From the NCBI RefSeq assembly GCF_001456355.1, contig NZ_CP010271.1, positions 1,550,001 through 1,614,000 of the forward strand: a stretch of 64,000 nt of DNA. The letters run 5' to 3'. Below are positions 201-15,118 of this stretch, in pieces. Source of the stretch: Mycobacteroides saopaulense (GTDB lineage Bacteria > Actinomycetota > Actinomycetes > Mycobacteriales > Mycobacteriaceae). The notes under the pieces were generated by a model that saw nothing but the letters and a program-made list of their open reading frames with translations, was not told the DNA's origin and searched no databases. The number at the start of each line of letters is the position of its first letter. Position 1 is the first letter of the stretch. A program made the position numbers and the translations under genes.

Positions 201-659
201 CTAAGAGCTTCGGCGTTCGGCGCTACAGCGGCTGCAGAAACCGAAGACCTCGACGGTGTGGTGCACCTCGGTGAAACCGTGCTCTTCGGCGATGTCGGTG
301 GCCCATTTCTCGACCGCGCCCGCCTGCACCTCCACCGCGAAACCGCAACTCTGGCATACCAAGTGGTGGTGATGGCCGTCCGAACAGCGGCGGTACACCG
401 ACTCTCCGGTGTCGTTGCGCAGCACGTCGACCTCGCCCGATGTCGACATGGACTGCAGCGTCCGGTAGACGGTGGTCAGGCCGATGCCCTCGCCCTCGCG
501 TTTGAGCTCGTCGTGTAGCTCCTGCGCGGACTTGAACTCGTCGGTCCGCTTGAGCAGGGCGGTGATGGCGGCGCGCTGGCGGGTGGAACGTACGGTCCCG
601 CGCAGGGCGGGCCGTTCCTCGCGGACGCTGGGGGGACCTCCGGCCTGCGTGGGCGTCAT
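201..659 (-). CDS. zur: Zur (FurB) zinc uptake repressor, Fur family
   Basis: This 152-residue Fur-family regulator represses zinc-uptake and zinc-sparing genes when zinc is abundant. The N-terminal winged helix covers roughly residues 20-90 (LTTVYRTLQ recognition region). The C-terminal dimerisation part has a His cluster at 96-99 and two Cys pairs, C102/C105 and C142/C145, typical of the structural zinc site. The start ATG (657-659) overlaps the smtB stop in an ATGA, so the pair is co-transcribed as smtB-zur, as in M. tuberculosis Rv2358-Rv2359. Identification as Zur rather than FurA rests on the smtB partner, the Cys pattern and the Zur-box-like site at 1450-1470 in front of the divergent operon. 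Confidence 0.93.
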   Translation of the reverse strand: MTPTQAGGPPSVREERPALRGTVRSTRQRAAITALLKRTDEFKSAQELHDELKREGEGIGLTTVYRTLQSMSTSGEVDVLRNDTGESVYRRCSDGHHHHLVCQSCGFAVEVQAGAVEKWATDIAEEHGFTEVHHTVEVFGFCSRCSAERRSS

Positions 660-1015
660 CTCTGTTCCTCGGTATGCGCGACCGCGTCGACGACGATGTG
701 GGAGAGGTGATCGTCGACGAGGCGGTACATGACCTCGCGGCCCTGGCGCTCCCCGGAAACCACTCCGGCGGCCTTCAGCACCCGCAGGTGCTGGCTGATG
801 AGCGGCTGGGCCACCCCGACCGCGTCGACCAGTTCATGCACGCAGCGCTGCGATTCGCGCAGCTGCAGCACGATGGCGATGCGCACCGGCGCGGCGAGCG
901 CGCGGAGCAGCTCACCGGACTGTTCGAGGATCTCGCGCGGGGGCAGCGGACCGGGCGGGGTGAGCGGCGCATGCGGCGGTTCGTCGTGTGCGGAGCTAAG
1001 CACGGTGTTCACCAC
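656..1015 (-). CDS. smtB: SmtB-type ArsR family zinc-sensing repressor
   Basis: A 119-residue ArsR/SmtB winged-helix protein. The DNA-binding helix-turn-helix (VAQPLISQHLRVLK) is followed by a beta wing. The C-terminal alpha-5 zinc site D-x-H-x10-H-x2-E is perfectly present as D101, H103, H114 and E117. In M. tuberculosis the homologue dissociates from DNA on zinc binding and derepresses its own operon with zur, so the two proteins respond oppositely to zinc. I took the GTG at 1013-1015, the first start in the frame; a second GTG follows directly. It is the first gene of the smtB-zur operon. I did not find a clear SmtB operator upstream. Confidence 0.92.
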   Translation of the reverse strand: MVNTVLSSAHDEPPHAPLTPPGPLPPREILEQSGELLRALAAPVRIAIVLQLRESQRCVHELVDAVGVAQPLISQHLRVLKAAGVVSGERQGREVMYRLVDDHLSHIVVDAVAHTEEQR

Positions 1016-1419: not shown

Positions 1420-1448
1420 TTGACACGGGGGCGCGCAATCTCTACGTT
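1420..1448 (+). promoter_or_regulatory. Predicted sigma-A-type promoter of the 22-gene operon
   Basis: A perfect -35 hexamer TTGACA (1420-1425) is followed after exactly 17 bases by a -10-like TACGTT (1443-1448). This puts the expected transcription start at about 1455, inside the Zur-box-like palindrome. A perfect -35 is uncommon in mycobacteria and suggests a strong promoter kept silent by a repressor. Confidence 0.65.
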
Positions 1449-1449
1449 A

Positions 1450-1470
1450 TGAAAACGATAATCATTATCA
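1450..1470. promoter_or_regulatory. Zur-box-like operator
   Basis: An AT-rich imperfect palindrome in a GC-rich setting, with half-sites TGAAAACGAT and ATCATTATCA around a central A. From memory, the published mycobacterial Zur consensus has the core GAxAATGATTxTCATTxTCA; 1451-1470 fits all but two of its fixed positions. It also resembles the enterobacterial Fur box, as expected for Fur-family sites. Its position over the predicted transcription start, next to the zur gene, implies zinc-dependent repression of the downstream operon. It does not resemble an IdeR iron box. Confidence 0.75.
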
Positions 1471-1505
1471 ATTAAGACTTTGATGCCTACCCGAGGATGA
1501 TCGTG

Positions 1506-2588
1506 ATGGCCGCCTTTGCTACCGACACCAATGAGTTGAAGAACACCGACAGCGGAAGTCGGCCGGGATGGTTCGTCAGCAGACGCGTCGACATCCTCTT
1601 TGTCTTCGGTCTGGGCGCATTGTTGTCCGCGGTGCTGTTCGCGGCCGACGGGCACAAGGGCGTGTTCCTGGTGGGTGCGGTGGTCTTCTCGCTGCTGTCC
1701 GACCTGCCGCATGTGCTCACCACCACGGCCCGCGTCTGGATGGATCCCCGGGAGCGGTCACGGTACTGGGCGCATTACGTGATCAGCTTCGTCGTGGTCG
1801 GCGCGATCGTCGGCACGTTGTGGTTCGGTGGCTGGTTGGTACCGCTGCTGGCCATCTGGGCCTACTGGCAGGTGTTCCACGTTCTCAAGCAGCACTTCGG
1901 GATCGTCAACATCTACGCAGCGAAGAACGGCTACAAGGGCCCGCGAAACCGGATCAAGTACGCGCTGTACGCCACCTGCCTGGCCCCGGTGCTGTACCGG
2001 GCGAGCCACGGCCTCAACTTCTCCGAGTACGAGGTCTTCGGTCACCGCCTGCCGTTCTCGAACCTGAGCGTACCGGTGCCACCCATTCCCGGCTTCCTGG
2101 TGATCGCTGGATTCGTCTGTGCCGCAGTCCTGTTGGGTGTCGCGGTGTGGGAGCAGTTCCAGCTCAAGCGGGCGGGGCAGCGCGCGCTGCCTGCCATGTC
2201 GGTGGCCACCTTTGTGATCGCGGCGCTGTCTTACAACCTGTCCTACCTGCTGGTTTCGGACCTCTTCGCGCTGATCCTGATCGCGACCACCACGCACAGC
2301 CTGCAGTATCACCTGATCAACTGGACGCGGAACAACACGCGCTTCGCGCGCAGCGAGGACCCGGGCGAGAAGAAGCTGCTCTTGGCGCGATTGTCGACGC
2401 GGAAGGCGCTGCCGCTGTACATCGCCTTCTTTGCAGGGCTGGGCATCCTCGCCGGCCAGCTCGACACGATCATCTTCGCGGTCCCGCTGACCTTTGTGCT
2501 GCACCACTTCTACATGGACGGTGCGCTGTGGAAGAGCAAGGGCAATCCCGAGTTGGCCCACGACCTGGGAATCGTCCGTGCTGGATAG
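1506..2588 (+). CDS. Polytopic membrane protein with conserved-looking histidines, first gene of the Zur-box operon
   Basis: A 360-residue integral membrane protein with about eight hydrophobic segments. His residues sit near membrane borders (DLPH, FHVLKQHFG, HSLQYH), with H333-H334 in the C-terminal HHFYMDGALWK. Such spacing is compatible with a metal-binding membrane enzyme or transporter, but I do not recognise the family. I chose ATG 1506 because GAGG at 1493-1496 lies 9 bases upstream; the ATG at 1497 directly abuts this ribosome site and is too close. It is the first gene after the Zur-like operator, and its end overlaps the next gene by 11 bases. A role in metal uptake or in lipid modification is inferred from context only. 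Confidence 0.75.
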   Translation: MAAFATDTNELKNTDSGSRPGWFVSRRVDILFVFGLGALLSAVLFAADGHKGVFLVGAVVFSLLSDLPHVLTTTARVWMDPRERSRYWAHYVISFVVVGAIVGTLWFGGWLVPLLAIWAYWQVFHVLKQHFGIVNIYAAKNGYKGPRNRIKYALYATCLAPVLYRASHGLNFSEYEVFGHRLPFSNLSVPVPPIPGFLVIAGFVCAAVLLGVAVWEQFQLKRAGQRALPAMSVATFVIAALSYNLSYLLVSDLFALILIATTTHSLQYHLINWTRNNTRFARSEDPGEKKLLLARLSTRKALPLYIAFFAGLGILAGQLDTIIFAVPLTFVLHHFYMDGALWKSKGNPELAHDLGIVRAG

Positions 2589-3756
2589 AGCACTGATCGA
2601 GCAGCCGGCCGGGCAGCGGCAGGCACGCCCGCCGGTATCGGTGCGCAGGGTCGAGTCACACTGCGAGGCCAAGCAATTCGTCGCGATGCCTTGGCGCGTC
2701 TACGGTGACGATCCGCTCTGGCGGCCCACGCTGCGTCGCGTCATGCACGCGAAGATGAACTCCAAGCACAACGCGCTGCACCGTGAGGTGCAGATCGAGA
2801 ACTTCGTCGCCTACCGCGGCGGTAGCCCCGTCGGACGCATCTCCGCGGCCATCGATTCGGCATACGTGCAGCGTTACGGCGACTGCGCATTCTTCGGATT
2901 TTTCGAGAGTGTGGACGACGAGGCGGTCACCGCCGCTCTACTCGGGGCGGCCGAGCAGTGGGCCGCCGGCCGGGGCGTGACCAAGATGGTCGGTCCGTTC
3001 AGCTACACCTCCCGCGAAGAGGTCGGACTCCTGGTCTCCGGGTATGACCGACCGCCCGCACTCATGCAGCCGTACAACCCCCGGTATTACCCGGCGTTGG
3101 TGGAGGCTTCCGGATACCGCAAGAAGTTCGACAGCGCCTCCTACCGTTGGCATGTCGACGGCAGCCGGGACGTTCGGCAGCGTCTGCTGCGGCGAGCCGA
3201 CGCGGTGATGCGCGACCAAGGACTGACGGTGCGCTCGGTGCGGATGCGCCGCTACGCCGACGAGCTGGAAATGCTGCGGGGTCTCTACAACGACTCCTTT
3301 GCCCATCACCCGGAGAACGTTCCGCTCAGCCGCGAGGTGTTCTCGGGTATGGCAGCCGAAATGCGGCCGCTGATCGATCCGAACATCGTGCGAATCGTCG
3401 AATCCGATGGCGTTCCCGTCGGATTCCTGCTGATGCTGCCGGATGTCAACGAGATCGTCGGGCGCTCCGGTCGGCTTACCCCGCCACTGTTGGCTCGCCT
3501 CGCCGCCCGGCGTGAGGGGCGCATCCGCGGGATCGAGACGGCGGTCGTGGTGCTCATCGGTGCGGTGCAGACCCAATTCGGGGCCGGGATCGGACGGGTG
3601 CTGGCAGGGGAGATCGTCCGGACGATCACCGGCAGCGGCTACTCGTCGGTCGCCACCACGTGGGTGCACGAGGACAACGTGTGGTCGAATTCGCTGACCT
3701 CCCAGATGAAGACAGACCCCGAGAAGATCCACCGGGTCTACCAGAAGGCGCTGTGA
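2578..3756 (+). CDS. GNAT-fold N-acyltransferase-like protein (YghO type)
   Basis: A 392-residue protein. The frame is open further upstream, but the fitting start is GTG 2578, overlapping the previous stop by 11 bases. It resembles YghO-like GNAT proteins: an N-terminal region with VGRISA and GFFES, the stretch GPFSYTSREEVGLLV, and a second acyltransferase-like half (from about residue 220) ending in an HEDNVWS segment. GNAT enzymes move acyl groups from CoA or carrier proteins to amines. In this operon, with diamine-forming enzymes and an acyl carrier protein, it is a candidate N-acyltransferase. The substrate cannot be read from sequence. Confidence 0.72.
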   Translation: MLDRALIEQPAGQRQARPPVSVRRVESHCEAKQFVAMPWRVYGDDPLWRPTLRRVMHAKMNSKHNALHREVQIENFVAYRGGSPVGRISAAIDSAYVQRYGDCAFFGFFESVDDEAVTAALLGAAEQWAAGRGVTKMVGPFSYTSREEVGLLVSGYDRPPALMQPYNPRYYPALVEASGYRKKFDSASYRWHVDGSRDVRQRLLRRADAVMRDQGLTVRSVRMRRYADELEMLRGLYNDSFAHHPENVPLSREVFSGMAAEMRPLIDPNIVRIVESDGVPVGFLLMLPDVNEIVGRSGRLTPPLLARLAARREGRIRGIETAVVVLIGAVQTQFGAGIGRVLAGEIVRTITGSGYSSVATTWVHEDNVWSNSLTSQMKTDPEKIHRVYQKAL

Positions 3757-4736
3757 TGGGCGACCGGACACTGGTCACCGGGGCCACCGGATACCTGGGA
3801 TCCACCCTGGTGAAATCCCTGGTGCAGGCCGGGGAGCGGGTCACCGTCCTGACCAACCCGCACGAGGCGGACGTGCTTCCCGGAGGGCTGCGCGAATACG
3901 TCGAGACGACCCGTGCGGACATCACCGACGCACGCAGCGTTGACGACGCGATGCGCGGCGCCTCTCACGTGTACCACCTTGCCGGCATCGCATCGCCGAA
4001 TTCCCGCCTGGGGCACAAGATCTGGCAGACCAATGTGCTCGGCACCTATCACGTGGCGCGTTCGGCGCTACAGCACGACGTGCAGCGCATGGTGCATGTG
4101 TCGTCCACCGCCGCCATCGGGTATCCGCCCAACGGGGTGGTGGCGGACGAGGATTTCGATCCGCGTGATTCGGTGCTGGACAACGTGTACTCGGCGACCA
4201 AGCGTGCGAGTGAGCAACTGGTGTTGGACTTCGTCGAACGCGGCCTGAATGCCGTCGTGGTGAACCCCGCCGCGGTGTTCGCGCCGGGGACCGGGCCCGC
4301 CCGGTCCTGGCAGGGGCTGCTGGTCGCCGCGCGCAAGGGCCTGCTGCGTGTGGTGCCGCCGGGAGGCACCGCCGTGTGCTCGGCACGAGACTTCGTCGCC
4401 GGTATCACGGCGGCAATGGCCAAGGGAGACAGCGGGCGTCGATACATCCTCAGCACCGCCAACCTGTCCTACCGGCAGATCGGAGAGCTGCTGGTGGCCG
4501 CGGTGGGCCGTGCGCATCCGGTGCGGTCTGCGCCGATGGGGCTCTTCCGGGCAACGGGCAGGGGAAACAGGCTGCTGCGCGATGTCTCCGGCCGCTTTGA
4601 CCCCGACGATGTGCTGGCTGCCGAGAACATCGAGCTGATGGCTCGCGAGCTGTATTACGCACCCGACAGGGCCGTGCGAGAGCTGGGAATTCCCAAGGTC
4701 TCTACCCACGAATTGATAGCGGAGTTCGTACGATGA
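3756..4736 (+). CDS. NAD(P)-dependent epimerase/dehydratase (extended SDR)
   Basis: A 326-residue extended short-chain dehydrogenase. The N-terminal Rossmann motif TGATGYLGS starts near residue 8, and the catalytic YxxxK is Y145/K149 in YSATKRASEQ. After it comes the usual VVNPAAVFAPG segment. This subgroup resembles dihydroflavonol-reductase-like and sterol-dehydrogenase-like proteins acting on keto/hydroxy groups of lipids or polyketides. ATG 3756 overlaps the previous stop by one base (TGATG). In the pathway it may reduce or oxidise a hydroxyl on the acyl chain, possibly one installed by the neighbouring desaturase/hydroxylase (inference). Confidence 0.85.
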   Translation: MGDRTLVTGATGYLGSTLVKSLVQAGERVTVLTNPHEADVLPGGLREYVETTRADITDARSVDDAMRGASHVYHLAGIASPNSRLGHKIWQTNVLGTYHVARSALQHDVQRMVHVSSTAAIGYPPNGVVADEDFDPRDSVLDNVYSATKRASEQLVLDFVERGLNAVVVNPAAVFAPGTGPARSWQGLLVAARKGLLRVVPPGGTAVCSARDFVAGITAAMAKGDSGRRYILSTANLSYRQIGELLVAAVGRAHPVRSAPMGLFRATGRGNRLLRDVSGRFDPDDVLAAENIELMARELYYAPDRAVRELGIPKVSTHELIAEFVR

Positions 4737-5791
4737 CGGTCGAGCCACGGCAGGTACAGGCCGGCTCCAAGGAAGCCCTCGGCATCTCGATGGCCGATGC
4801 GCGTGCGCTGGTGGCAGACCTGGCGGCCCGCAGACAATGGATCTATTGGCTGGACCTTGCCGCTTGCCTGGCAATCGGGTACACGGCCTTCCTGTTGTGC
4901 CCGGCAGAGAATCTACTCTCGATGCCTGCGGTGGCGTGCATTGTGGTGGCGGCCTTCGCGTTCTATCGCGCCGTGCTGTTCGTGCACGAGCTCGTGCACG
5001 CCGAGGAAGACTTGCGCTGGTTCTCGGTGGTATGGCATGCGGTGTGCGGAATACCTTTTCTGGCACCGAAATTCACCTTCGAGTTCCACCACGAACACCA
5101 TGCGTCGCGCACCTACGGGACGGCGGAGGACGGCGAGTACGTCACCTACGCCAGTGAACCGCGCTGGCGCATCATCGTGTTGCCGTTCACCGCGCTGGGC
5201 GGACCGCTGGCCTTTGTCTTCCGGTTCCTGGTGCTTGCTCCGCTGAGCTGGCTGATTCCGGCGATCCGGCCGGTGGTGCTGACCCGGGCGTCCTCGCTGA
5301 TGATCGACGCCGACTTCGAGCGCCCGCTGCCACCGGCGGGCACCCCGCGTTCGTGGCTGGTGCAGGAGATCGCTTGTTTCGCCTACACATCGGCCATGCT
5401 GGTACTGCTGCTCCTGGGCGCCTACTCGCCGTATCGGTTGGTGGAGGCCTATGCCGTGATTGCCCTGGCATTGTTCGTGAACTGGCTGCGCGTGCTGGTG
5501 GCCCACCGGTATGAGGGCAAGAGCGAGCGCATGACCTTCCCGGAGCAGGTTCTCGATTCGATCGATCACCCGTCCGTGCCCGTCCTTGGTTCGCTATGGG
5601 CGCCGGTCGGGTTGCGTTTCCATGCGGTGCACCACTTTTTCCCTCAGCTGCCTTACCACCAGCTGGGGGAGGCGCGCCGGCGGCTGATGGCGGCGATCCC
5701 GCCCGATGCCGGGTACTGGTCCACCGAAGACCGTTCACTCGCCTCATCGCTGCGGCGGCTGCTCGCCCACCCGCGTAAGGAGGCGGTATGA
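4733..5791 (+). CDS. Membrane fatty acid desaturase/hydroxylase family protein
   Basis: A 352-residue membrane di-iron enzyme with the three histidine boxes of the fatty-acid desaturase superfamily: HELVH (H85, H89), HHEHH (H119, H120, H122, H123) and HAVHH (H297, H300, H301). Hydrophobic pairs lie at about 40-85 and 160-190, with more segments around 215-260. Family members introduce double bonds or hydroxyls into acyl chains using O2. ATGA overlaps with both neighbours show tight coupling. In this context it would tailor the fatty acyl group handled by the acyl-AMP ligase and acyl carrier protein encoded downstream. Desaturation versus hydroxylation cannot be told from sequence. Confidence 0.85.
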   Translation: MTVEPRQVQAGSKEALGISMADARALVADLAARRQWIYWLDLAACLAIGYTAFLLCPAENLLSMPAVACIVVAAFAFYRAVLFVHELVHAEEDLRWFSVVWHAVCGIPFLAPKFTFEFHHEHHASRTYGTAEDGEYVTYASEPRWRIIVLPFTALGGPLAFVFRFLVLAPLSWLIPAIRPVVLTRASSLMIDADFERPLPPAGTPRSWLVQEIACFAYTSAMLVLLLLGAYSPYRLVEAYAVIALALFVNWLRVLVAHRYEGKSERMTFPEQVLDSIDHPSVPVLGSLWAPVGLRFHAVHHFFPQLPYHQLGEARRRLMAAIPPDAGYWSTEDRSLASSLRRLLAHPRKEAV

Positions 5792-7143
5792 CCACAAGTC
5801 AATTCACGTCCACGGCACGAGAGTCCGGGGCCGCGACATACTCTCGGCGATTGCCCATACGGCCGGTCGAGGCGCGGGGCGCACGCGTGCGCGCCGACGA
5901 CGGCCGCTGGTACGTCGACTGCTTGGCCGCCGCGGGTGCCATGTCGCTGGGCTGGAACCACCCGGTTGTCAGCGAGGCGGTCATCAAGACGGTTTCCTCG
6001 GGCGAGCCGCTGCTGTCGTTGGACTTTCACACCCCTACCCGGGATCGATTCGTCGAGGAGCTGCTCTCCATCCTGCCCGTGCGGCTGGCAGCCGATGCCA
6101 ACATCCACTTGTGCTCACCCAGCGGGGCGAGCGCGGTCGAGGCCGCCCTGATGCTCGCCGAGATCGCCACCGGTGGCCGTGAACACATTGGCGTGCAAGG
6201 TGGATTCCACGGATGCACGCGGGCCGCGCGCGCCACGAGCTCCGGCGGCGGCCTGCGCCGACAACCGGTGGTGTTGTCTCCGCAGGCCAGCTTTCTGCCC
6301 TATCCGCAGGATTACCGCAGTCCCTTCGGGGTGGGCGGGGAGCAGGGTGTCGAACTGGCGATCGCGGTGGCCGACGCACTCACGCGCCCGCACAGCGGAG
6401 TGACGGCCCCGGCATCGTTGATCGCCGAGTTCGTGTTGGGAGAGGGTGGGGTGATCCCGGCGCCGGCGCGGTGGGGGCAGGCGCTGCGCCGTACGGCATC
6501 GACACTCGGTGTCCCACTGATCGCCGACGAGGTGCAGGCGGGTATGTATCGCACCGGCCCCGCCTGGGCGTTTCAGCACTGCGGCATCGAACCCGACATG
6601 ATGGTCATCTCCAAGGGGCTCGGTTCCGGTATTCCGATCGCGGTTCTGGTGGTGCGCAAGGAATTCGACGTGTGGGAGCCCGGAGCGTTCACCGGCACCT
6701 TCCGTGGCAACGCGATAGCCTTCGCCGCGGCGAGCGCCGTGATCCGCTTCGCGCGGGAGAACGGTCTGCGCGGGCAGGTGACCGCTCGCGGCCAGGTCTT
6801 CCGGGATGGTCTGAACGCCATCGCATCCGGTTCGAACCTGGTCGGCGACGTGCGCGGGGTCGGCCTCATGCTGGGTGTGGAGATCGTGGACCGCGACCAG
6901 CCGTGGCCGGACGACGCCGGAGCGCCGGCCCCCGATCTTGCGACCGAGATTCAGCAGGCCTGCCTGCAGCACGGTCTCATCGTCGAGACCGGTGGACAGT
7001 ACGGCAACGTGGTGCGGTTCCTGCCGCCGCTGACCATCGAGGAACCCGACATCTCCGCCGCGCTCAACGCCTTCGAGGCTGCACTCGCGGCGGTGGAGCG
7101 CACCCGGTCAACCAGTGGATCCGAGCTCGCGGAGTCACGATGA
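5788..7143 (+). CDS. Class III PLP aminotransferase, probable diaminobutyrate-2-oxoglutarate type
   Basis: A 451-residue fold-type I class III aminotransferase. D247 of the DEVQAG motif binds the PLP nitrogen, and K276 in ISKGLGSG is the expected Schiff-base lysine. The sequence resembles the EctB/Dat group, which converts aspartate semialdehyde to L-2,4-diaminobutyrate. The strongest functional hint is the next gene, a decarboxylase of the diaminobutyrate decarboxylase type. Adjacent dat-ddc pairs make 1,3-diaminopropane and feed siderophore pathways such as rhizobactin and acinetobactin. Start ATG 5788 overlaps the previous stop by four bases after an AAGGAGG-like ribosome site. Ornithine or beta-alanine transamination remain alternatives. 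Confidence 0.85.
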   Translation: MTTSQFTSTARESGAATYSRRLPIRPVEARGARVRADDGRWYVDCLAAAGAMSLGWNHPVVSEAVIKTVSSGEPLLSLDFHTPTRDRFVEELLSILPVRLAADANIHLCSPSGASAVEAALMLAEIATGGREHIGVQGGFHGCTRAARATSSGGGLRRQPVVLSPQASFLPYPQDYRSPFGVGGEQGVELAIAVADALTRPHSGVTAPASLIAEFVLGEGGVIPAPARWGQALRRTASTLGVPLIADEVQAGMYRTGPAWAFQHCGIEPDMMVISKGLGSGIPIAVLVVRKEFDVWEPGAFTGTFRGNAIAFAAASAVIRFARENGLRGQVTARGQVFRDGLNAIASGSNLVGDVRGVGLMLGVEIVDRDQPWPDDAGAPAPDLATEIQQACLQHGLIVETGGQYGNVVRFLPPLTIEEPDISAALNAFEAALAAVERTRSTSGSELAESR

Positions 7144-8645
7144 CGGCGAACCAGAGTCCCTTCGTGAGTGTCTTTCTCACGGGAGATAGCGAAAACACCT
7201 ACCGCGAGGCCATCGCACTGGCGGCCGACCGGGCCGGCGGCGCGCTGGGCGGTGCCACCGTGCCCGGACTGGTCGACGGTTACGCCGCGCTGAAACGCGA
7301 GGCCGGGCGGCTGGATCTCGACGACCCCGACGGGGTGGGACTGAGCCGGGCGTTGGACGAAGCAGCGGGATTGCTCGCCGAGAAGTCGGTCGTGGTAACG
7401 CATCCCGCATACCTGGCGCATCTGCATTGCCCACCCGCGTTGCCGTCGCTGGCCGCAGAGGTGCTGATCAGCGCGTTCAACCAGTCGATGGACTCCTTCG
7501 ACCAGGCTCCTGCGGCTACCGCCATCGAACAGCAGGTCATCGAATACCTGTGTGCCAGAATGGGATACGGGCTGGCCGCCGACGGCACTTTCACCAGCGG
7601 CGGTACCCAGTCGAATCTGCAGGCACTGCTGCTGGCCCGCGATCTCTTCGCCCGCAGATCAGGATGGGATATCGCGACCCAGGGACTGCCGCCGGAGGCC
7701 GGTTCATGGCGGGTGCTGTGCACCCGGCAGACACATTTCTCGGTGCAGCAGGCTCTTCGGGTGCTCGGTCTCGGTACGGCCGCCGTCATCGAGGTGCCCA
7801 CCGACGATGCCGGGCGGCTGCGGTCCGAGGCGCTCCCGGAGATCCTGGACGACGCGGACCGCGCGGAAACGCCGATCTTCGCCCTCGTACTCACCGCCGG
7901 AACAACCGATTTCGGGGCGATCGACCCGCTGGAGGCGTCCACCGAGCTGGCCCGGGCGCGGGGCATCTGGGTCCACGTGGACGCCTGCGCGGGTGGCTGC
8001 CTGATCTTCAGTGAGCAGCATCGGGGCCTGCTGCGCGGTATCGAGCAGGCCGACTCGGTCGCCATCGATTTCCATAAGCTGCTGTTCCAGGCGATCAGTT
8101 GCAGTGCGCTCTTGGTGCGTCACCGGGAGAGCTTCGAAGTGCTTGCCGCGCACGCGGATTACCTCAACCCGGTCAGCGATGCGGAGCAGGACGTGCTCAA
8201 TCTGGTGGGCAAATCCCTGCAGACCACCCGCCGCTTCGACGCGCTCAAGGTGCTGGTCACCTTGCGGGCGGTGGGGCAGCGGCATGTCGCCGCGATGATC
8301 GATGCCACCTGTGCGGCGGCCTCGGCCGCGGCGGCAGTGGCGGACGAGCATCCGGACCTGGAATTGGCGGCGCCGGTGTGTACCAACACCGTGGTGTTGC
8401 GCTGGCGGCAGCCGGACGTCGCTTCTGAGGCGCGTGACCTGATAAACGAAACGGTGCGGGCAGAGCTCGCCCACAGCGGCCGCGCGATCGTGGGGCGCTC
8501 CAGCGCCGCTGGGGGTCAGGCGATCAAACTCACCTTCGTCAATCCCTTGGTCACCGCCTCTGCGGCGGCCGCGATGGTCTCCGAGATCGCCGCCCATGGC
8601 AACAGGATCTGGCGTGCGCGTACCCCGGAGGTCAGCGCCATATGA
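7140..8645 (+). CDS. Group II PLP decarboxylase, probable L-2,4-diaminobutyrate decarboxylase
   Basis: A 501-residue group II PLP-dependent decarboxylase of the glutamate/aromatic/diaminobutyrate family. It has an HxDAC motif (VHVDACAGG) and the PLP lysine K313 in AIDFHKLLFQ. Length and motifs fit L-2,4-diaminobutyrate decarboxylase, which releases CO2 to give 1,3-diaminopropane. ATG 7140 overlaps the aminotransferase stop in ATGA, matching the conserved dat-ddc pairing. The longer open frame upstream is noise inside the aminotransferase gene. If the assignment is right, this gene commits the pathway to a diamine head group for acylation. Confidence 0.83.
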   Translation: MTANQSPFVSVFLTGDSENTYREAIALAADRAGGALGGATVPGLVDGYAALKREAGRLDLDDPDGVGLSRALDEAAGLLAEKSVVVTHPAYLAHLHCPPALPSLAAEVLISAFNQSMDSFDQAPAATAIEQQVIEYLCARMGYGLAADGTFTSGGTQSNLQALLLARDLFARRSGWDIATQGLPPEAGSWRVLCTRQTHFSVQQALRVLGLGTAAVIEVPTDDAGRLRSEALPEILDDADRAETPIFALVLTAGTTDFGAIDPLEASTELARARGIWVHVDACAGGCLIFSEQHRGLLRGIEQADSVAIDFHKLLFQAISCSALLVRHRESFEVLAAHADYLNPVSDAEQDVLNLVGKSLQTTRRFDALKVLVTLRAVGQRHVAAMIDATCAAASAAAAVADEHPDLELAAPVCTNTVVLRWRQPDVASEARDLINETVRAELAHSGRAIVGRSSAAGGQAIKLTFVNPLVTASAAAAMVSEIAAHGNRIWRARTPEVSAI

Positions 8646-9352
8646 GCGACCAGCTGGCACGTGTGGAGCGCGTCTCTGCCGCCGACGCACGGTTCGCCTG
8701 GGCCAAGAACGTGGAGTTCTCGATCTTCGGTCTGGAGAACGACTTCGCCGACGACGTCGATATCGCGGCAGGGGAGATGGTGCACTACCGCCCCTGGGAG
8801 CGCTCGTCGGAGATCTACGTGGGCTTCTCCGGGGAATCGCCCGAGCATCCCGTCGGCGTACTGCGAGCCCTGAGGCACGATCCCGAGCTGGGCCTCGGCA
8901 GCTTCAGTACGCTGCGCGACGCCCGAAACTACCGCCACGGCACCGGAGCCGCACGCAATTATCTCTATCCGCAATGGGATTCGTTCTTCGACGGTGTTGC
9001 GCCGGAGCGCATCGCCGAGCTGGCGACCCAGGGAGTGCGCAAGAGCCATCGCCGCGCCGGGATGATCGAGCAGATATGGCACGAGTTCTTCGGCGCGCTG
9101 GCGACCGAGGGTGTCCACTTCGTCACGGTGGCGTTGGTGGTGCCGCTCTTCGACTGGTATCAGCACCTGCTGTCGGAGAGGCTGCACCAGATCGGCGACA
9201 TCCTGCCTCACTACATCGGGGCCGACAGCGTGCCCGCGGTCCTCGACATCAGTGGGTCATTCGTTCCGGATGCCGCCGGTGCCGTGCAGAACGGCTCGCT
9301 GTTGGCCGCCACGGCCACCCCCTCGTCCCCCAAGAAGGAAAGAGTCAGATGA
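8642..9352 (+). CDS. GNAT-like protein, possible acyl-ACP-dependent N-acyltransferase
   Basis: A 236-residue soluble protein with no signal peptide. An early YVGFSGESPEHPVGVLRALR segment, the central KSHRRAGMIEQIWHEFF and the later FVTVALVVPLFDWYQ follow the beta-strand/helix pattern of GNAT-fold enzymes. They recall N-acyl amino acid synthases (FeeM) and acyl-homoserine lactone synthases, which take acyl chains from acyl carrier protein. I see only this overall resemblance, no diagnostic motif, so the family call is tentative. The operon also encodes an acyl carrier protein and an acyl-AMP ligase, so an ACP-dependent acyl transfer to the diamine would make sense. ATGA overlaps bind it to both neighbours. 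Confidence 0.55.
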   Translation: MSDQLARVERVSAADARFAWAKNVEFSIFGLENDFADDVDIAAGEMVHYRPWERSSEIYVGFSGESPEHPVGVLRALRHDPELGLGSFSTLRDARNYRHGTGAARNYLYPQWDSFFDGVAPERIAELATQGVRKSHRRAGMIEQIWHEFFGALATEGVHFVTVALVVPLFDWYQHLLSERLHQIGDILPHYIGADSVPAVLDISGSFVPDAAGAVQNGSLLAATATPSSPKKERVR

Positions 9353-9855
9353 GATCGATTCACACCGAAGAGCACGTCTTCCGCAAGGTCAGCGAGATCG
9401 ACTGTCCCGTAGACAAAGTATGGGAGCGGGTGACCACCCAAGAGGGCATCAACGACGAGATGGGCCCGTACATGAAGATGACGATGCCCAAGCAGTTCCG
9501 TGGCAAGTCCATCGCGGATGTCACCCCGGGCACCCGCATCGGCAAGAGCTTCCTGCTGCTGTTCGGTGTGCTCCCGTTCGGGTTCGACGACATCACCGTG
9601 GCGCGGCTGGAGCCCGGCCGGATGTTCCGCGAGGAATCCCTGATGACGGGTATGCGGGTGTGGGTGCACCACCGCACTCTGGAACCGCTGGGCGACAAGA
9701 CGATCGTCACCGACGAGGTCACCCTGGCCCCGCAAGCCCCGATGGGTCTGATCCCCGGTTGGGGCCGGCTGCTGAGCAAGATCCTGGCGGCCTTCTTCAC
9801 GCACCGGCACCGGCGCCTCAGCCGTACCCTTTCCGTCGCCGGAGTGCCGCGATGA
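9349..9855 (+). CDS. SRPBCC (polyketide cyclase/lipid-binding fold) protein
   Basis: A 168-residue protein with the START/Bet v1-like pattern: an early V-x-EIDCPVDKVWERVTTQEGI segment, a central strand-rich part (TPGTRIGKSF, ARLEPGRMFREES, VWVHHRTLEPLGDKTIVTDEVTL) and a basic C-terminal helix (FFTHRHRRLSRTL). Such proteins bind hydrophobic ligands or act as small cyclases. In a lipid-assembly operon it could carry or shape the acylated product. ATG 9349 follows an AGGAAAG ribosome site and overlaps the previous stop; the longer upstream frame is out-of-gene noise. Confidence 0.75.
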   Translation: MRSIHTEEHVFRKVSEIDCPVDKVWERVTTQEGINDEMGPYMKMTMPKQFRGKSIADVTPGTRIGKSFLLLFGVLPFGFDDITVARLEPGRMFREESLMTGMRVWVHHRTLEPLGDKTIVTDEVTLAPQAPMGLIPGWGRLLSKILAAFFTHRHRRLSRTLSVAGVPR

Positions 9856-10595
9856 GACGTCTCGGCGCGGGCGCGCTCGCGGTGCTGGCGGTGGCGATGG
9901 CCTCCGCGTGCGCGCCGGTGAACGAGGAAGCCGGGAAACCCGTCGGGCACGCCTTCCAGTTGCTGAAGTACCCTGCGTCGCAGGCAGATCCGGCGGCAGA
10001 GCCGCAAGGAAAGTCCCCCTTCGGTGATTACGCACTGGAAGTGTCCGGCTCGGTGACGTATCTCGGCGAGACCACCGCCCTCCCGGGTGCGGGTGTCATG
10101 ACCGTCGGGCCGGGACCGCGACGCGGTGAGCTGAAGATCGAGCAGTACTACCAGGGAGACCGATTCCCCTACGAAACGGGGATCGTCTCCGGTGGAGACG
10201 GCAAGCCCAGCACGCTCGATGCCATCACCATCGTCAACCCGCTGGACTCGCGGGTGACCCTGCAATGCGCGGTGGACGGCGGAATCGCCTTGGCGGATAT
10301 CGACGGTGAGCGTGAGCTGGCCGGAACATGCGGTGGGGGATCGAAGGCGCACGGGCACGTGAGGGCCGATGGCAGTCGCAAGGCGACGTGGCGCGACAAA
10401 CCCGTCGACCTGATCCGCACCGTGGTGGACCTGACCATCACCGGCTCCAGCAGCGGTCAGATCCACCAGGTCAACGAGGTCCCCAGGGACGGCAGCTTCC
10501 CCCTGTCCACATCGATCGACGTGAACATGACGGCGCAGGGCATCAGTCTCACCCAGAAGCTGCAGCGCCACGTCCTCCCGAAAGTGAAGGACTGA
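9852..10595 (+). CDS. Secreted lipoprotein of unknown function
   Basis: A 247-residue protein with a lipoprotein signal: basic MRR, a hydrophobic stretch, then lipobox A17-S18-A19-C20. The mature part is rich in beta strands and turns (SGSVTYLGETTALPGAGVM, repeated DG and TITG segments) and has two further Cys (in TLQCAVDGG and AGTCGGGS). No family is recognised. ATG 9852 overlaps the previous stop (ATGA). Sitting between the SRPBCC gene and the ABC exporter, it may be the envelope partner that receives the exported product or a metal complex (inference). Confidence 0.75.
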   Translation: MRRLGAGALAVLAVAMASACAPVNEEAGKPVGHAFQLLKYPASQADPAAEPQGKSPFGDYALEVSGSVTYLGETTALPGAGVMTVGPGPRRGELKIEQYYQGDRFPYETGIVSGGDGKPSTLDAITIVNPLDSRVTLQCAVDGGIALADIDGERELAGTCGGGSKAHGHVRADGSRKATWRDKPVDLIRTVVDLTITGSSSGQIHQVNEVPRDGSFPLSTSIDVNMTAQGISLTQKLQRHVLPKVKD

Positions 10596-10598
10596 TTG

Positions 10599-11537
10599 AT
10601 GACAACGGAAACACAGACTCCGGCGCTGCGCGCGACCGATCTGGTCAAGGCCTACCCGGGGTCGGAGGCCCGGGCGGTGGACGGCTTGAACCTGACGATT
10701 CCGCGAGGTGTCGTCTACTGCCTGCTGGGCAGGAACGGGGCGGGCAAGACCACCACCATTCGCATGGCCACCACCCTGCTCACCCCCACCAGTGGGGAGC
10801 TCGAGGTGCTCGGCGTTCCCGTGGACAAGACCAAGGAGCTGCGCCCCCTCATCGGTGTGGCCCTGCAAGAGGTGGCACTCGATCTGTGGATGTCACCGGT
10901 CGAGCAGATCCGCATGAGTCTGGCCATCGCCGGCTGGCCCAAGGCGCGGCGCAAGGCGCGCGAGGAACAGCTCATCGAGCAGTTCGGCCTGAGTAGCTAT
11001 GTGAACCGCAAGGTGGGCGCGCTGTCGGGCGGCATGCGCCGCCGCGTCGACGTCGCGCTGGCGGTCGCGCACAACCCGCAGATGCTCTTTCTCGACGAGC
11101 CCTCCAGTGGGCTGGATATCGAAGGCAAACAGGAGGTTTGGAATGCTATCCGGCTGCTGCGTTCCGAAGGGCGGACCGTCGTGCTGACCACACACGATAT
11201 GGACGAGGCGGTGTCACTCGCCGACGAGGTGGGCATCGTCAAGAGCGGACAGCTCGTGGCGTCGGGCTCCACCCAGGAGTTCACGCGCAGCCACGGTTAC
11301 GCCGTCGAGATCTCGGCCTACGGCGGCATCTCCGAGGACACGGCCAACGAATTGGTGGCCGCGGGCTACACCCTGCAACGCGGTGAGACCGGGACCTTGT
11401 CCGGGACATTGGATTCCGCGTCCGCTACCGACCTGGAGGCGCTCAGTGCCCAGCTCGGTCGCGTCGGGTTGGGTGCGGCCAGCATCGAAGTGCGATCCAC
11501 CTCGCTGCGCGACGCATTCCTGGAGGTGACGCAGTGA
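10599..11537 (+). CDS. ABC transporter ATPase, DrrA-like exporter
   Basis: A 312-residue ABC ATPase with Walker A GRNGAGKTT from residue 44, signature LSGGMRRR, Walker B LFLDEP with D166/E167 and a switch His in TTHDMDEA. The C-terminal extension (about 230-312) is typical of the DrrA/CcmA-type export subfamily. I prefer ATG 10599, three bases after the upstream stop, over the TTG at 10596. It pairs with the following ABC-2 permease. DrrAB-like exporters of mycobacteria move lipids across the inner membrane, so export of the acylated product is the likely job. Confidence 0.92.
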   Translation: MTTETQTPALRATDLVKAYPGSEARAVDGLNLTIPRGVVYCLLGRNGAGKTTTIRMATTLLTPTSGELEVLGVPVDKTKELRPLIGVALQEVALDLWMSPVEQIRMSLAIAGWPKARRKAREEQLIEQFGLSSYVNRKVGALSGGMRRRVDVALAVAHNPQMLFLDEPSSGLDIEGKQEVWNAIRLLRSEGRTVVLTTHDMDEAVSLADEVGIVKSGQLVASGSTQEFTRSHGYAVEISAYGGISEDTANELVAAGYTLQRGETGTLSGTLDSASATDLEALSAQLGRVGLGAASIEVRSTSLRDAFLEVTQ

Positions 11538-12304
11538 ACGCCTTGTCCAACACCGCGCGGCTGTTTCGCCGTTACGTCGTCGTGGGTCTGCGACAGCCGG
11601 TCTTCGGGTTCATCTTCCCGATCGTCTTCCCGGTCGTCCTGGTGATCTTCGTGCGGTCGATGTTCCAGCGGGTCGCCGACCTACCCGGGTTCCCGCTGTC
11701 CTCCTACACCGCGTACATCGCGCCGGGCCTCATCATGCTCATTCCGATGCTCGGCGCGGGTTACGGCGCAGGCACACTCATCGACGAGATCCGATCGGGG
11801 TTCACCGACCGGCTGCGGCTCTACGGCGTGTCCACCGGACAGATCATGGCGGCCAAGATCGGCTTCGAGATGTTCCGCATCCTCCCCGCGGCGGTCATCG
11901 TCATCGGACTGCTGGCCTTCCTCGACGCGCCGCTGCGGGCGGGGCTGTTGACAGGGTTCTTCCTGGTTCTGGTGATGTTCCTATGGTCGGCGGCGTACAG
12001 CTCCCTGTTCTACCTGGTGGCGTTGCGCACCCTCAATCCGCAGGCGCCCGTGGCGATGCTGCCGCTGGCCCTACCGGTGCTGTTCGTCAGTCAGGCACTC
12101 ATGCCGTCGGTGTTCCTGTCCGATTGGCTCAGGATCAGCATCAACGCGAATCCCTTCTCCCACATCGTGTCCGCCGCCTCCACGATCATGTACGGCGAAT
12201 TCGACGCCATGCTGGTGGTCAAGGGCGCCCTGGTTGCCATCGGCATGTTCGCGCTGCTGCAAATCCCCATCCATCTGGTGATCCGCCGCAAAATCGGCAA
12301 ATAG
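11534..12304 (+). CDS. ABC-2 type export permease, DrrB-like
   Basis: A 256-residue membrane protein with six hydrophobic segments. The ABC-2 family stretch includes GLIMLIPMLGAGYGAGTLIDEIRSG (about residues 65-90) and FSHIVSA late in the protein. Start GTG 11534 overlaps the ATPase stop (GTGA). With the ATPase it forms a two-gene exporter like DrrAB. No periplasmic binding protein is present, which argues for export. Confidence 0.9.
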   Translation: MNALSNTARLFRRYVVVGLRQPVFGFIFPIVFPVVLVIFVRSMFQRVADLPGFPLSSYTAYIAPGLIMLIPMLGAGYGAGTLIDEIRSGFTDRLRLYGVSTGQIMAAKIGFEMFRILPAAVIVIGLLAFLDAPLRAGLLTGFFLVLVMFLWSAAYSSLFYLVALRTLNPQAPVAMLPLALPVLFVSQALMPSVFLSDWLRISINANPFSHIVSAASTIMYGEFDAMLVVKGALVAIGMFALLQIPIHLVIRRKIGK

Positions 12305-12321
12305 AAGGCATAGAGAAAAAT

Positions 12322-12597
12322 ATGGAAACCCCGTCACAACACGATGTTCTTCGCGCAAGCGACTCATCACAGGTCCGTGAGTTCCTCATCGAATTCATCG
12401 CCGAGGAGCTTGAGCTACCCACCGCGGACGTCAACGACTTCTCGGAACTGGTGGGCGATCTCGGGTTCGACTCGCTGTCATTCGCCCTGGGAGTCTCGGA
12501 GATCAAGGGTCGCTTCGGCATTCAGCTGACCAAGGACGACGTCTTCGAATGCAAGACCCTCGGCGCGCTGATCGAGCTCGTGGAGAGTCGACTGTGA
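12322..12597 (+). CDS. Acyl carrier protein
   Basis: A 91-residue stand-alone acyl carrier protein. S51 in GDLGFDSLSFALG is the 4'-phosphopantetheine attachment site. Helix 1 (VREFLIEFIAEEL) and the acidic helix 2 region are typical. ATG 12322 is chosen because the frame upstream is only the antisense-like continuation within the permease; the spacing of 17 bases is the largest inside the biosynthetic part. A dedicated ACP beside an acyl-AMP ligase means a fatty or other carboxylic acid is loaded as a thioester for transfer, as in FAAL/ACP pairs and the Rv0099-Rv0100 pair of M. tuberculosis. Confidence 0.93.
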   Translation: METPSQHDVLRASDSSQVREFLIEFIAEELELPTADVNDFSELVGDLGFDSLSFALGVSEIKGRFGIQLTKDDVFECKTLGALIELVESRL

Positions 12598-14252
12598 CGA
12601 CGAATCCGGTGATCGAGCGGTTGCGGGCCGGCGCCGGCATCGCCCACCGCGGCCTCACCTCGGCACCAATCGGCCCCGACGGGACGTCGCTGCTGGACGA
12701 GTTGCGCACGGTGCCATGGGCGGATGTGCACCTGACGGGGTTGCGCATCGCGGGTGCCCTCCAGGCCGCGGGGGTACGCCCCGGTGACGCGGTCGCGGTA
12801 CTGGCCGGTGCCCCCGGCGAAATCGCTCCACTGGTGCAGGGCATCTGGCTCTCCGGCGCCTCGGTGACCATGCTGCACCAGCCGACCCACCGGTCCGATA
12901 TGCGCGTGTGGGTCGAGGACACCGGCCGGGCACTGGCCGCGGTCGGTTCCTCGACGGTTGTGGTGGGCGACCCGTTCATGGCCGCCGTCGGCCAGTTCGG
13001 GTCCGTCGCCACGCGCGTTTTGGAGTTGCCCGCCCTGTTGAACGGGCCGCCCGGCGAGGTTGTGGAGACCGACCAGGACGCTATCGCCTTCCTGCAGTTG
13101 ACCTCCGGCTCCACCGGTACGCCCAAGGCCGTCAGCATCAGCTACCGCAATATCGAGGCCAACCTGCGGGCCATGGTGAGCGCGTCCGGCGCGGACCCCG
13201 AAACGGATGTGGTGGTGAGTTGGCTGCCGCTGTTCCACGACATGGGAATGATGGGCTATCTGATCGTCCCGATGTGCCGGGGAATGAACACGGTCAGCGT
13301 GACGCCGATGGACTTCCTCGGTGATCCGCTGTTGTGGGCGAGGCTCATCAGTACCTATCGCGGCAGCATGACAGCGGGCCCTAACTTTGCGTACTCACTG
13401 CTGGCCCGCCGCCTGAGCAAGGCACCCGATGGTGCATATGACTTGTCCTCGTTACAGTTCGCGCTCAGCGGTGCCGAGGCGATCGACGTCGCGACCCTCG
13501 AACGGTTCGCGGCGCAGGGCGCTCGCTTCGGTATGCGGGCTGAGGCCATCGTCCCCGCCTACGGTATGGCCGAGGCCACGCTGGCGGTCTCGTTCGTGCG
13601 GCGCGGTGAGGGGTTCCGGGTGTGCCCGCCGCATCCCGATCTGGTCGCAATAGAGGGCGCAGAGGTCAGTGCGCGTGTGCCGCTGGGGCTTCCGCTGCCC
13701 GGATGCGAGGTGCGGGTGGTCAACGACGACCGCGAGGTGTTGCCCGTGAACGCGATAGGCGAGCTGGAAATTCGTGGGGACAATGTCACCGCCGGGTACC
13801 GCACGGCATCGGGATTCGAGCCGATGTTGGACGCGCAGGGCTGGTTGTCCACGGGCGATATCGGCTACTTGATGCAGGACGGTCAGCCGGTGATCTGCGG
13901 GCGTAAGAAGGACATCCTGATCATCTCGGGGCGCAACGTGCATCCCGAGGACATCGAGCGGTCGGTCGTCGGGGTGGCCGGCGTTCGTTCCGGCGGCATC
14001 GCCGCGGTGCGTCTGTCCACGGCGGCGGCCGGTGAAGGATTTGCGATGGTGGCCGAATCGGCGCTACACGCGAACACCGCCGAGAGCGCACGCATCCGTG
14101 CCGAGGTGGCCGATCGTGTCTACCGCACCCTTGGGGTGAGCCCGCGTGACGTCCATGTGGTCCCCGCCGGTTGGATCCCGAAGACGTCCTCGGGGAAGCT
14201 GCGCAGGAGAGCCACCACTGAACGTCTAGCAAAATGTAGTGTGAGGCGATGA
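12594..14252 (+). CDS. Acyl-AMP ligase (FadD/FAAL-like) for loading the ACP
   Basis: A 552-residue ANL-superfamily adenylating enzyme. The P-loop LTSGSTGTPK covers residues 169-178. YGMAEATLAVSF, GWLSTGDIGYL and CGRKKDILIISGRNVHPEDIE follow in order, with the catalytic lysine region TSSGKLRRR at the end. The YGMAEATL and GRNVHPEDIE wording is closer to fatty acyl-AMP ligases, which load carrier proteins, than to acyl-CoA synthetases. I could not confirm the FAAL insertion by eye. GTG 12594 overlaps the ACP stop (GTGA), a strong sign that the ACP is its partner. Confidence 0.88.
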   Translation: MTTNPVIERLRAGAGIAHRGLTSAPIGPDGTSLLDELRTVPWADVHLTGLRIAGALQAAGVRPGDAVAVLAGAPGEIAPLVQGIWLSGASVTMLHQPTHRSDMRVWVEDTGRALAAVGSSTVVVGDPFMAAVGQFGSVATRVLELPALLNGPPGEVVETDQDAIAFLQLTSGSTGTPKAVSISYRNIEANLRAMVSASGADPETDVVVSWLPLFHDMGMMGYLIVPMCRGMNTVSVTPMDFLGDPLLWARLISTYRGSMTAGPNFAYSLLARRLSKAPDGAYDLSSLQFALSGAEAIDVATLERFAAQGARFGMRAEAIVPAYGMAEATLAVSFVRRGEGFRVCPPHPDLVAIEGAEVSARVPLGLPLPGCEVRVVNDDREVLPVNAIGELEIRGDNVTAGYRTASGFEPMLDAQGWLSTGDIGYLMQDGQPVICGRKKDILIISGRNVHPEDIERSVVGVAGVRSGGIAAVRLSTAAAGEGFAMVAESALHANTAESARIRAEVADRVYRTLGVSPRDVHVVPAGWIPKTSSGKLRRRATTERLAKCSVRR

Positions 14253-15118
14253 CTGGGCAGGGCCAGCAGGTCCGTGTCCGCCCCGTGGTGTCCAAAGTGG
14301 TTCGCCCACTGGGTTATCGAAGTGCGGTCTATATACGACATCACCCGATTGCTGCGCTCACCACAGTGGGCGAGCAATTTGTCCTGGGCGTGCATACGCT
14401 GCGCTACTTCGTGACGGATTTGGTGACCGGTCGTTTTCAGTGGACGGAGTTCGTGCGGCAGGCGGCCTTCATGGCGGGTACGGCCGTGATGCCGACGGTG
14501 CTGGTGGCACTGCCCATCGGGGTGACGCTCTCCATTCAGTTCGCGCTGCTCGCGGGGCAGGTCGGTGCTACCTCGCTGGCCGGTGCGGCGAGCGGCCTGG
14601 CGGTGGTGCGGCAGGCCGCATCTCTGGTGGCGGCCATGTTGTTGGCCTCGGCGGTGGGCTCGGCGATGACCGCCGATCTCGGGTGCCGCACCATGCGTGA
14701 GGAAACCGCGGCCATGGAGGTCATGGGTGTCTCGGTGGTGCGCCGCCTCGTGGTCCCGCGGTTTGCCGCGGCCATTCTCATCGGTATCGCTCTTACCGGC
14801 GTGGTGTGCTTTGTGGGGTTCCTGGCCAGTTACCTGTTCAACGTGTTCGTACAGGGCGGTGCCCCAGGCAGTTTCGTCGCCACCTTCGCATCGTTCGCCA
14901 CCCCGGCGGACCTGCTGCTGGCACTGATGAAGGCGGCGGTCTACGGGGCCGTCGTCGCGGTGATCGCCTGCCAGAAGGGGCTGGCCGCGCACGGTGGGCC
15001 GACCGGAGTGGCCAACTCGGTGAACGCGGCCGTCGTCGAGTCTGTGCTGCTGCTCATGATCATCAACGTCGTGGTCAGCCAGGTCTACACCATGCTGTTC
15101 CCCAGGGCGGTGCTGTGA
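14249..15118 (+). CDS. yrbEA: YrbEA, Mce transporter permease
   Basis: A 289-residue MlaE/YrbE-family permease with five or six membrane segments. The family stretch TADLGCRTMREETAAMEVMG is intact. YrbE proteins form the inner-membrane channel of Mce lipid importers, driven by the separate Mkl ATPase, which is not in this window. ATG 14249 overlaps the acyl-AMP ligase stop by four bases, so the importer is continuous with the biosynthetic genes. Confidence 0.93.
   Translation: MTGQGQQVRVRPVVSKVVRPLGYRSAVYIRHHPIAALTTVGEQFVLGVHTLRYFVTDLVTGRFQWTEFVRQAAFMAGTAVMPTVLVALPIGVTLSIQFALLAGQVGATSLAGAASGLAVVRQAASLVAAMLLASAVGSAMTADLGCRTMREETAAMEVMGVSVVRRLVVPRFAAAILIGIALTGVVCFVGFLASYLFNVFVQGGAPGSFVATFASFATPADLLLALMKAAVYGAVVAVIACQKGLAAHGGPTGVANSVNAAVVESVLLLMIINVVVSQVYTMLFPRAVL

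Follow-up and report, generated by a model that had tools for sequence, protein, structure and literature searches.

In Mycobacteroides saopaulense, a long run of biosynthetic and lipid-transport genes starts beside the divergent genes smtB and zur, which raises the question of what these genes make together and whether the product serves in zinc starvation. The run was analysed in a stretch of 64,000 nucleotides (the window; bases 1550001-1614000 of a 4.65 Mb single-contig genome) and comprises 22 genes on one strand, p01-p22, that form one unit (1497-23952, + strand; Table 1). The answer favoured here, tentatively and with confidence just short of even, is that all 22 genes answer to Zur as a single unit, whose product, a small acylated diamine lipid, is made, exported and taken up again when zinc is scarce. 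What the analysis shows is gene content, gene order, conservation, Zur boxes, protein families and modelled folds; zinc-responsive expression is published for the M. abscessus orthologue.

Neighbouring genes share 4-base overlaps at 16 of the 21 junctions, and the other five range from an 11-base overlap to a 17-base gap, counted with start codons selected by the analyst. A first-pass annotation had proposed an acylated-diamine pathway at 1506-14252; the enzymes it named are intact open reading frames where it placed them, joined by overlaps as it described, but its boundary is too short, since it holds the first 13 of the 22 genes and cuts between p13 and p14, omitting the YrbE, Mce and PF10118 genes. 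Its pathway is borne out in part. At family level, the two GNAT-type proteins, the desaturase, the SDR, the acyl carrier protein (ACP), the acyl-AMP-type ligase and the DrrAB-like pair are all present, with a weak match for the SRPBCC-like protein, whereas the Mce half had been left out. Family scans covered 17 of the 22 genes; p17-p21, each shorter than 400 residues, were assigned as Mce from gene order and orthologue annotation. As the first-pass annotation had also stated, there is no nonribosomal peptide synthetase (NRPS) or polyketide synthase among the 17 scanned genes, and the other five are Mce-sized.

Probable zinc control of the unit

Two overlapping frames before gene 1, 1447-1467 and 1453-1473, each differ at one position from the published mycobacterial Zur consensus TRWYGRNAAYSRTNNNCRWYW, so the Zur-like site noted in the first pass is real. 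A site with at most one mismatch precedes gene 1 in all 16 other syntenic loci, thus in 17/17 with the window; when the 16 upstream stretches were shuffled by mononucleotide, such a site turned up in 2 of 1600 shuffles. All 17 full loci carry the Zur box expected of members of the regulon. Perfect consensus matches occur in the window's genome at four places, all at gene starts: two at the divergent pair for ribosomal L28 and an MRF-type GTPase, one at an AztC/ZnuA-like lipoprotein gene and one at a ZigA-like GTPase gene. The AztC/ZnuA-like and ZigA-like proteins score below NCBIfam cut-offs; the set is of the published kind of regulon. Allowing one mismatch gave 42 matches on both strands, compared with 4 for a reversed control, a number that implies that many weak sites arise by chance; a separate search used a pattern drawn from the window site itself and is no proof on its own. 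Just below a Zur-box-like site with one mismatch starts the gene of a PPE-like protein that contains a His/Asp-rich run (G000:C1, about 679460-680795; locus L137, 1460-2770); it probably corresponds to MAB_0809c of the published regulon.

The same operon has been met in Mycobacterium abscessus; statements on published work refer, here and below, to the available parts of the cited papers. By annotation, MAB_1680-MAB_1701 match the 22 genes one for one and in the same order; a Zur box precedes MAB_1680, and all 22 transcripts drop by 3.6 to 10.3 log2 units in RNA-seq with a zinc-carrying inhibitor (PMC8951752). That study labels them putative Zn-siderophore biosynthesis and transport with an MCE transporter, so that the zincophore idea is already in print as a table annotation (PMC8951752). 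MAB_1680 was also predicted as a Zur target (PMC6734328), and changes in furB (MAB_1678c) occur in patient isolates (PMC8526041). The operon is not described in the available parts of PMC7174638 (on M. smegmatis Zur/SmtB), PMC9044949, PMC9505556 or PMC8526041. The comparison with M. abscessus was made through published annotation, and p02 has an 89% homologue, P0072, that bears the name M. abscessus subsp. bolletii. The two operons are orthologous with no difference in kind, and the published data on the M. abscessus one concern expression (zinc, and hypoxia through DosRS). The operon as such is already known; what is added here is the conservation of 21 genes in two zinc neighbourhoods, the fold of p07 and the placement of Dat.

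Other expression data point elsewhere. MAB_1693-1699 are strongly induced in M. abscessus biofilms, for which fatty-acyl import was suggested (PMC8586431), and MAB_1681-1698 are induced by hypoxia in a DosRS-dependent manner in a report whose available parts leave zinc unmentioned (PMC10034137). The latter report finds that the Mce proteins correspond to no single M. tuberculosis mce locus and suggests a cell-wall role and mycolic acid importation (PMC10034137). Zinc is thus not the sole signal in M. abscessus, which weakens the zincophore reading and strengthens its main rival, stress-induced remodelling of the envelope. According to this rival, which we regard as unlikely although it is the most serious, an acyl-diamine membrane lipid is made for zinc starvation and hypoxia and distributed by the Mce and DrrAB systems with no zinc bound. 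The biofilm and hypoxia responses suit it, and so do the fatty acyl-AMP ligase (FAAL), ACP, desaturase, Mce and START-like proteins, all of which are appropriate to a structural lipid.

The unit in other mycobacteria

A genus-wide search with p07 was positive in 18 of 396 genomes, among them that of the window, and the closest match (95% identity) is in Mycobacteroides chelonae S00154. Genes p01-p21 are complete, in the same order and with open frames in 16 of the 17 other positive genomes, which gives 17 of 18 full units with the window; because loci were selected by p07, partial clusters lacking it would be missed. The exception, G261, has a lone p07 homologue, 44-47% identical, in a 228-residue open frame (G261:C10:132668-133288). 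This gene lies just before an acyl-CoA-ligase-like frame with 27% identity to p13, possibly a two-gene version of the acyl transfer step.

Nine of the full loci, including that of the window, sit beside smtB-zur and eight lie elsewhere, the latter including those of M. houstonense (G246) and M. peregrinum (G352). Within about 6 kb beyond mceF, seven of the eight relocated loci have AztC/ZnuA-like, AztD or ZigA-like relatives together with exact Zur-consensus sites (four with ZigA- and AztC-like genes, two with these and AztD, and G312 with AztD only). In G246, the sole locus whose zinc genes were family-tested, one AztD exceeds the NCBIfam cut-off (449 bits against 400), and the ZigA-like and AztC-like proteins fall below theirs. 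An extra exact Zur-consensus site lies right past the last mce gene in G246, G312, G364, G208, G315, G352 and G078. As p01-p21 are kept together at both locations, the unit appears to travel whole, biosynthetic and Mce genes alike, and mostly beside zinc genes. Such company is better suited to metal acquisition than to envelope remodelling. The accessory gene p22 follows mceF in the nine Mycobacteroides-type loci; in the remaining eight it lies upstream, is incomplete or was not found.

The six-gene mce block is present in 17/17 loci, and two YrbE and six Mce genes have the make-up of an Mce transporter operon, of which p14-p16 were scanned. A second alternative separates the two halves of the unit, with the Mce half importing lipids from the surroundings, either fatty acyl chains or mycolic acids, and the biosynthetic half using the imported chains. 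FAALs accept free fatty acids, which would allow such use. Acyl-chain import by MAB_1693-1699 (PMC8586431) and mycolic acid importation (PMC10034137) have both been proposed. This division is rather improbable, since the Mce genes are never split from the biosynthetic genes in the 17 full loci, although the choice of loci by p07 hides any Mce loci without it.

Beyond these genomes, a search for the gene order based on the p07 alignment, with seven candidates scored per genome, matched 4 of 397 genomes, all in one genus of 85, and genus searches around two other genomes matched 0/4 and 0/2. Protein searches list homologues of p01 and p07 named Nocardia, and of p07 and p02 named Segniliparus. 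In Nocardia sp. CDC159, NDR87_00380 (p07) and NDR87_00410 (p01) are 30 locus-tag numbers apart, a spacing that, from tag numbers alone, would fit the same gene order.

Proposed diamine supply and the acyl chain

The five best of 69 NCBIfam models for Dat are all named diaminobutyrate transaminases, none of them over cut-off, and the best PDB chain, 6rl5, is named diaminobutyrate--2-oxoglutarate transaminase. The SKGL motif is kept in 17/17 loci. A 29-row tree places Dat within a clade of 21 Dat-type rows with 100/100 support, apart from eight class III paralogues encoded in the same genome; those eight were taken from 12 other class III matches, and there are long branches among them. The clade includes rows from Sinorhizobium meliloti 1021 (annotated as rhbA in a different S. 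meliloti record), Halorussus, Pantoea, Streptomyces, G023, G031 and G035. The first-pass assignment of this enzyme to a diamine-forming family, which a phylogeny pointing elsewhere would have overturned, is thus not refuted. The companion claim for Ddc holds at family level: the best model is NF052646 (RhbB), and PF00282 over cut-off, the catalytic lysine motif D[FY]HK in 17/17 loci and an adjacent Dat in 17/17 identify a group II pyridoxal phosphate-dependent (PLP) decarboxylase. It does not extend to the curated RhbB cut-off or to the substrate, which the tree, with PanP as sole outgroup and without a desferrioxamine-type row, does not separate.

Ddc could instead act on ornithine or lysine, or diaminobutyrate itself could be the acyl acceptor, either of which would give another amide. 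The best PDB match of Ddc, 5o5c (344 bits), is a decarboxylase of desferrioxamine biosynthesis and slightly outscores the diaminobutyrate-type 2qma (327 bits). We consider a diamine other than 1,3-diaminopropane quite improbable, as the Dat neighbour in 17/17 loci and relatives in other dat-ddc pairs favour diaminobutyrate as the substrate. The nearest tree row outside the unit (G023) itself adjoins a Dat, and the best match in the plasmid collection (50% identical) is a Dat-linked haloarchaeal decarboxylase. Judged from these sequence comparisons, Ddc would most likely convert diaminobutyrate to 1,3-diaminopropane. The haloarchaeal pair of Halorussus vallis lies beside IucA/IucC siderophore genes, a setting that argues against a purely structural envelope lipid. 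The G023 pair, from another genome of the genus (locus L031, G023:C3:303000-322000, about 9237-12253) and 65% and 51% identical to the window's Dat and Ddc, occurs without the rest of the operon.

For the acyl half, the NCBIfam order for p13 begins with PRK07768, over cut-off and itself named a CoA ligase, followed by MbtM and FAAL models (336-187 bits) and then the acyl-CoA ligase PRK06187 (175 bits). Among 18 PDB sequences listed, which include FadD23, FadD28 and FadD32, six are named fatty-acid-AMP or acyl-adenylate ligases and the rest are PKS/NRPS domains or 'acyl-CoA' ligases; by the two lists, p13 sides with FAALs over acyl-CoA ligases. The p12 ACP has its DSL motif in 17/17 loci and a PP-binding match over cut-off. 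The modelled structure of p07 adopts the fold of acyl-homoserine lactone (AHL) synthases and FeeM, at 9-13% identity to the ten best structural rows, and the neighbouring ACP and FAAL suggest that it may acylate an amine from acyl-ACP or acyl-CoA. The window's p02 has no direct family match in the scan, but its homologue P0094 (68% identical) passes the PF00583 gathering threshold; a likeness of p02 to bacterial ceramide synthase is a speculative further idea. The p04 protein has no PDB relative by sequence; its histidine boxes HE[LI]VHA and HAVHH are kept in 17/17 loci, with a middle box of invariant H..HH. Seven histidines of p01 are invariant or nearly so, and this protein has no clear PDB match. 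The closest NCBIfam models for p03, HpnA and SdmB, are below cut-off. Of the lipid-handling candidates, p08 is present in 17/17 loci, and p09, without a family match in the scans, has a lipobox-like cysteine near residue 20 in 17 N-termini.

A candidate lipid zincophore

The scheme that we infer from these families covers substrates, order of steps, product, zinc binding, and the cargo and direction of the Mce complex. Dat would convert aspartate semialdehyde to 2,4-diaminobutyrate and Ddc would convert this to 1,3-diaminopropane, while the p13 acyl-AMP ligase would load a fatty acid on the p12 ACP. The chain would be modified by p04, the His-rich p01 and the p03 SDR, probably adding oxygen ligands, before p07 passes the acyl group from the ACP to one of the amines; the other amine would be acylated by p02. 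The lipid would then be handled by p08 and the lipoprotein p09, exported by DrrAB and returned, presumably zinc-loaded, by the YrbE/Mce complex. In its boldest form, which is doubtful as a whole, the product would be a metallophore of a new chemical class, an NRPS-independent lipid zincophore: an acyltransferase of autoinducer-synthase fold would join an oxidised ACP-borne chain to the dat-ddc diamine, p01 would tailor the chain and a dedicated Mce complex would import the zinc-lipid complex.

Several observations, besides the DosRS response and the ranking of 5o5c over 2qma, weigh against this reading. A simple N-acyl-diamine binds zinc poorly, so the product would need further groups: either the oxidative genes would be essential to it, or the lipid would belong to the envelope instead. 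Known Mce cargoes are lipids. Curated cut-offs are missed by Dat (473.5 of 671 bits for PRK06938, 375 of 401.6 for TIGR00709) and Ddc (391 bits against 900 for NF052646), and DrrA, DrrB, YrbE and p16 are likewise under theirs. In G252, the examined part of the relocated locus is free of zinc-handling genes, and the listed stretch around the Pantoea dat-ddc pair is free of siderophore genes. For the operon there is neither a known metabolite nor known metal binding nor a known mutant, and no paper naming its product was found in the literature searched, which reached few subscription journals.

Comparison with known systems shows where the proposed product would stand. RhbA and RhbB act in the making of rhizobactin. 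Siderophore dat-ddc modules, in rhizobactin and beside IucA/IucC in Halorussus vallis, likewise place a Dat next to a Ddc, both from the families found here, but feed IucA/IucC-type synthetases, where the operon has FAAL/ACP and GNAT-type acyltransferases instead. AHL synthases and FeeM, an N-acyl amino acid synthase, share the modelled fold of p07, which has FAAL/ACP nearby for acyl-ACP; p07 differs in its low identity to them and in its acceptor, presumably a diamine. Staphylopine and pseudopaline are small secreted zinc chelators tied to zinc starvation, like the proposed product, but no nicotianamine-like synthase or opine dehydrogenase is among the 17 operon genes scanned.

Kupyaphores and other isonitrile lipopeptides (INLPs) are metal-linked and join a FAAL/ACP-activated fatty acid to a diamino unit, as the operon is proposed to do. 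FAAL, ACP and a diamino unit are thus common to the INLP pathway and the operon, which could suggest a kupyaphore-like chelator of copper or zinc, and INLP genes have been reported in M. abscessus (PMC8586431). Such a pathway is very improbable here, as the 17 scanned genes include no NRPS, thioesterase or ScoE-type oxygenase, and so lack the NRPS and isonitrile-forming oxygenase by which an INLP/kupyaphore cluster is recognised; the operon has Dat/Ddc and Mce genes instead.

If the zincophore reading is correct, some mycobacteria would respond to zinc starvation with a metallophore that is a lipid and belongs to neither the NRPS nor the opine class. One Mce system would then carry a metal-loaded lipid, a metal-acquisition Mce. 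It would make testable both the cargo of an orphan Mce complex and zinc uptake beyond ABC importers in these mycobacteria.

Table 1. Positions in the window of the operon genes, the Zur box and the divergent neighbours
Feature	Position	Strand	Basis
zur (furB), divergent neighbour	201..659	-	Fur-family NCBIfam matches, below cut-offs; adjoins operon in 9 Mycobacteroides-type loci including the window
smtB, divergent neighbour	656..1015	-	ArsR/SmtB model NF033788 over cut-off
Zur-box-like palindrome before gene 1	1447..1473		1 mismatch to published consensus TRWYGRNAAYSRTNNNCRWYW
p01 polytopic His-rich membrane protein, oxidase-like or metal-binding candidate	1497..2588	+	MAB_1680 by order
p02 GNAT-family acyltransferase	2578..3756	+	homologue P0094 over PF00583 gathering
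p03 SDR / NAD-dependent epimerase-reductase	3753..4736	+	PF01370 E 3.3e-31
p04 membrane fatty-acid desaturase/hydroxylase	4733..5791	+	PF00487 E 3e-21, over cut-off
p05 Dat, predicted diaminobutyrate 4-transaminase	5788..7143	+	NCBIfam, PDB, tree
p06 Ddc, group II PLP decarboxylase	7140..8645	+	PF00282 over cut-off
p07 AHL-synthase/FeeM-like N-acyltransferase	8642..9352	+	modelled fold
p08 SRPBCC/START-like protein (weak)	9349..9855	+	Polyketide_cyc2 E 0.06, below cut-off
p09 probable exported lipoprotein	9852..10595	+	lipobox-like cysteine
p10 DrrA-like ABC ATPase	10596..11537	+	TIGR01188 229.6 bits, cut-off 312
p11 DrrB-like ABC-2 permease	11534..12304	+	TIGR00025 E 1.3e-8, below cut-off
p12 acyl carrier protein	12322..12597	+	PF00550 over cut-off (scanned as 12310-12597)
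p13 fatty acyl-AMP-type ligase	12594..14252	+	PRK07768 745 bits, cut-off 572
p14-p15 YrbE/MlaE-type permeases	14249..15975	+	TIGR00056 E 1.6e-34 and 2.9e-32, below cut-off
p16-p21 six Mce proteins (mceA-F)	15977..23053	+	p16: TIGR00996 E 4e-21, below cut-off; p17-p21 by order and MAB_1696-1700 annotation
p22 PF10118 predicted metal-dependent hydrolase (accessory)	23050..23952	+	PF10118 227 bits (scanned from 23053)

Elsewhere in the window, a second class III aminotransferase (PF00202) is encoded shortly downstream of the operon, at 25638-26867. Between 52001 and 56000 the G+C fraction falls to 0.56-0.58, whereas most of the window has about 0.65-0.68; this stretch may be of foreign origin.

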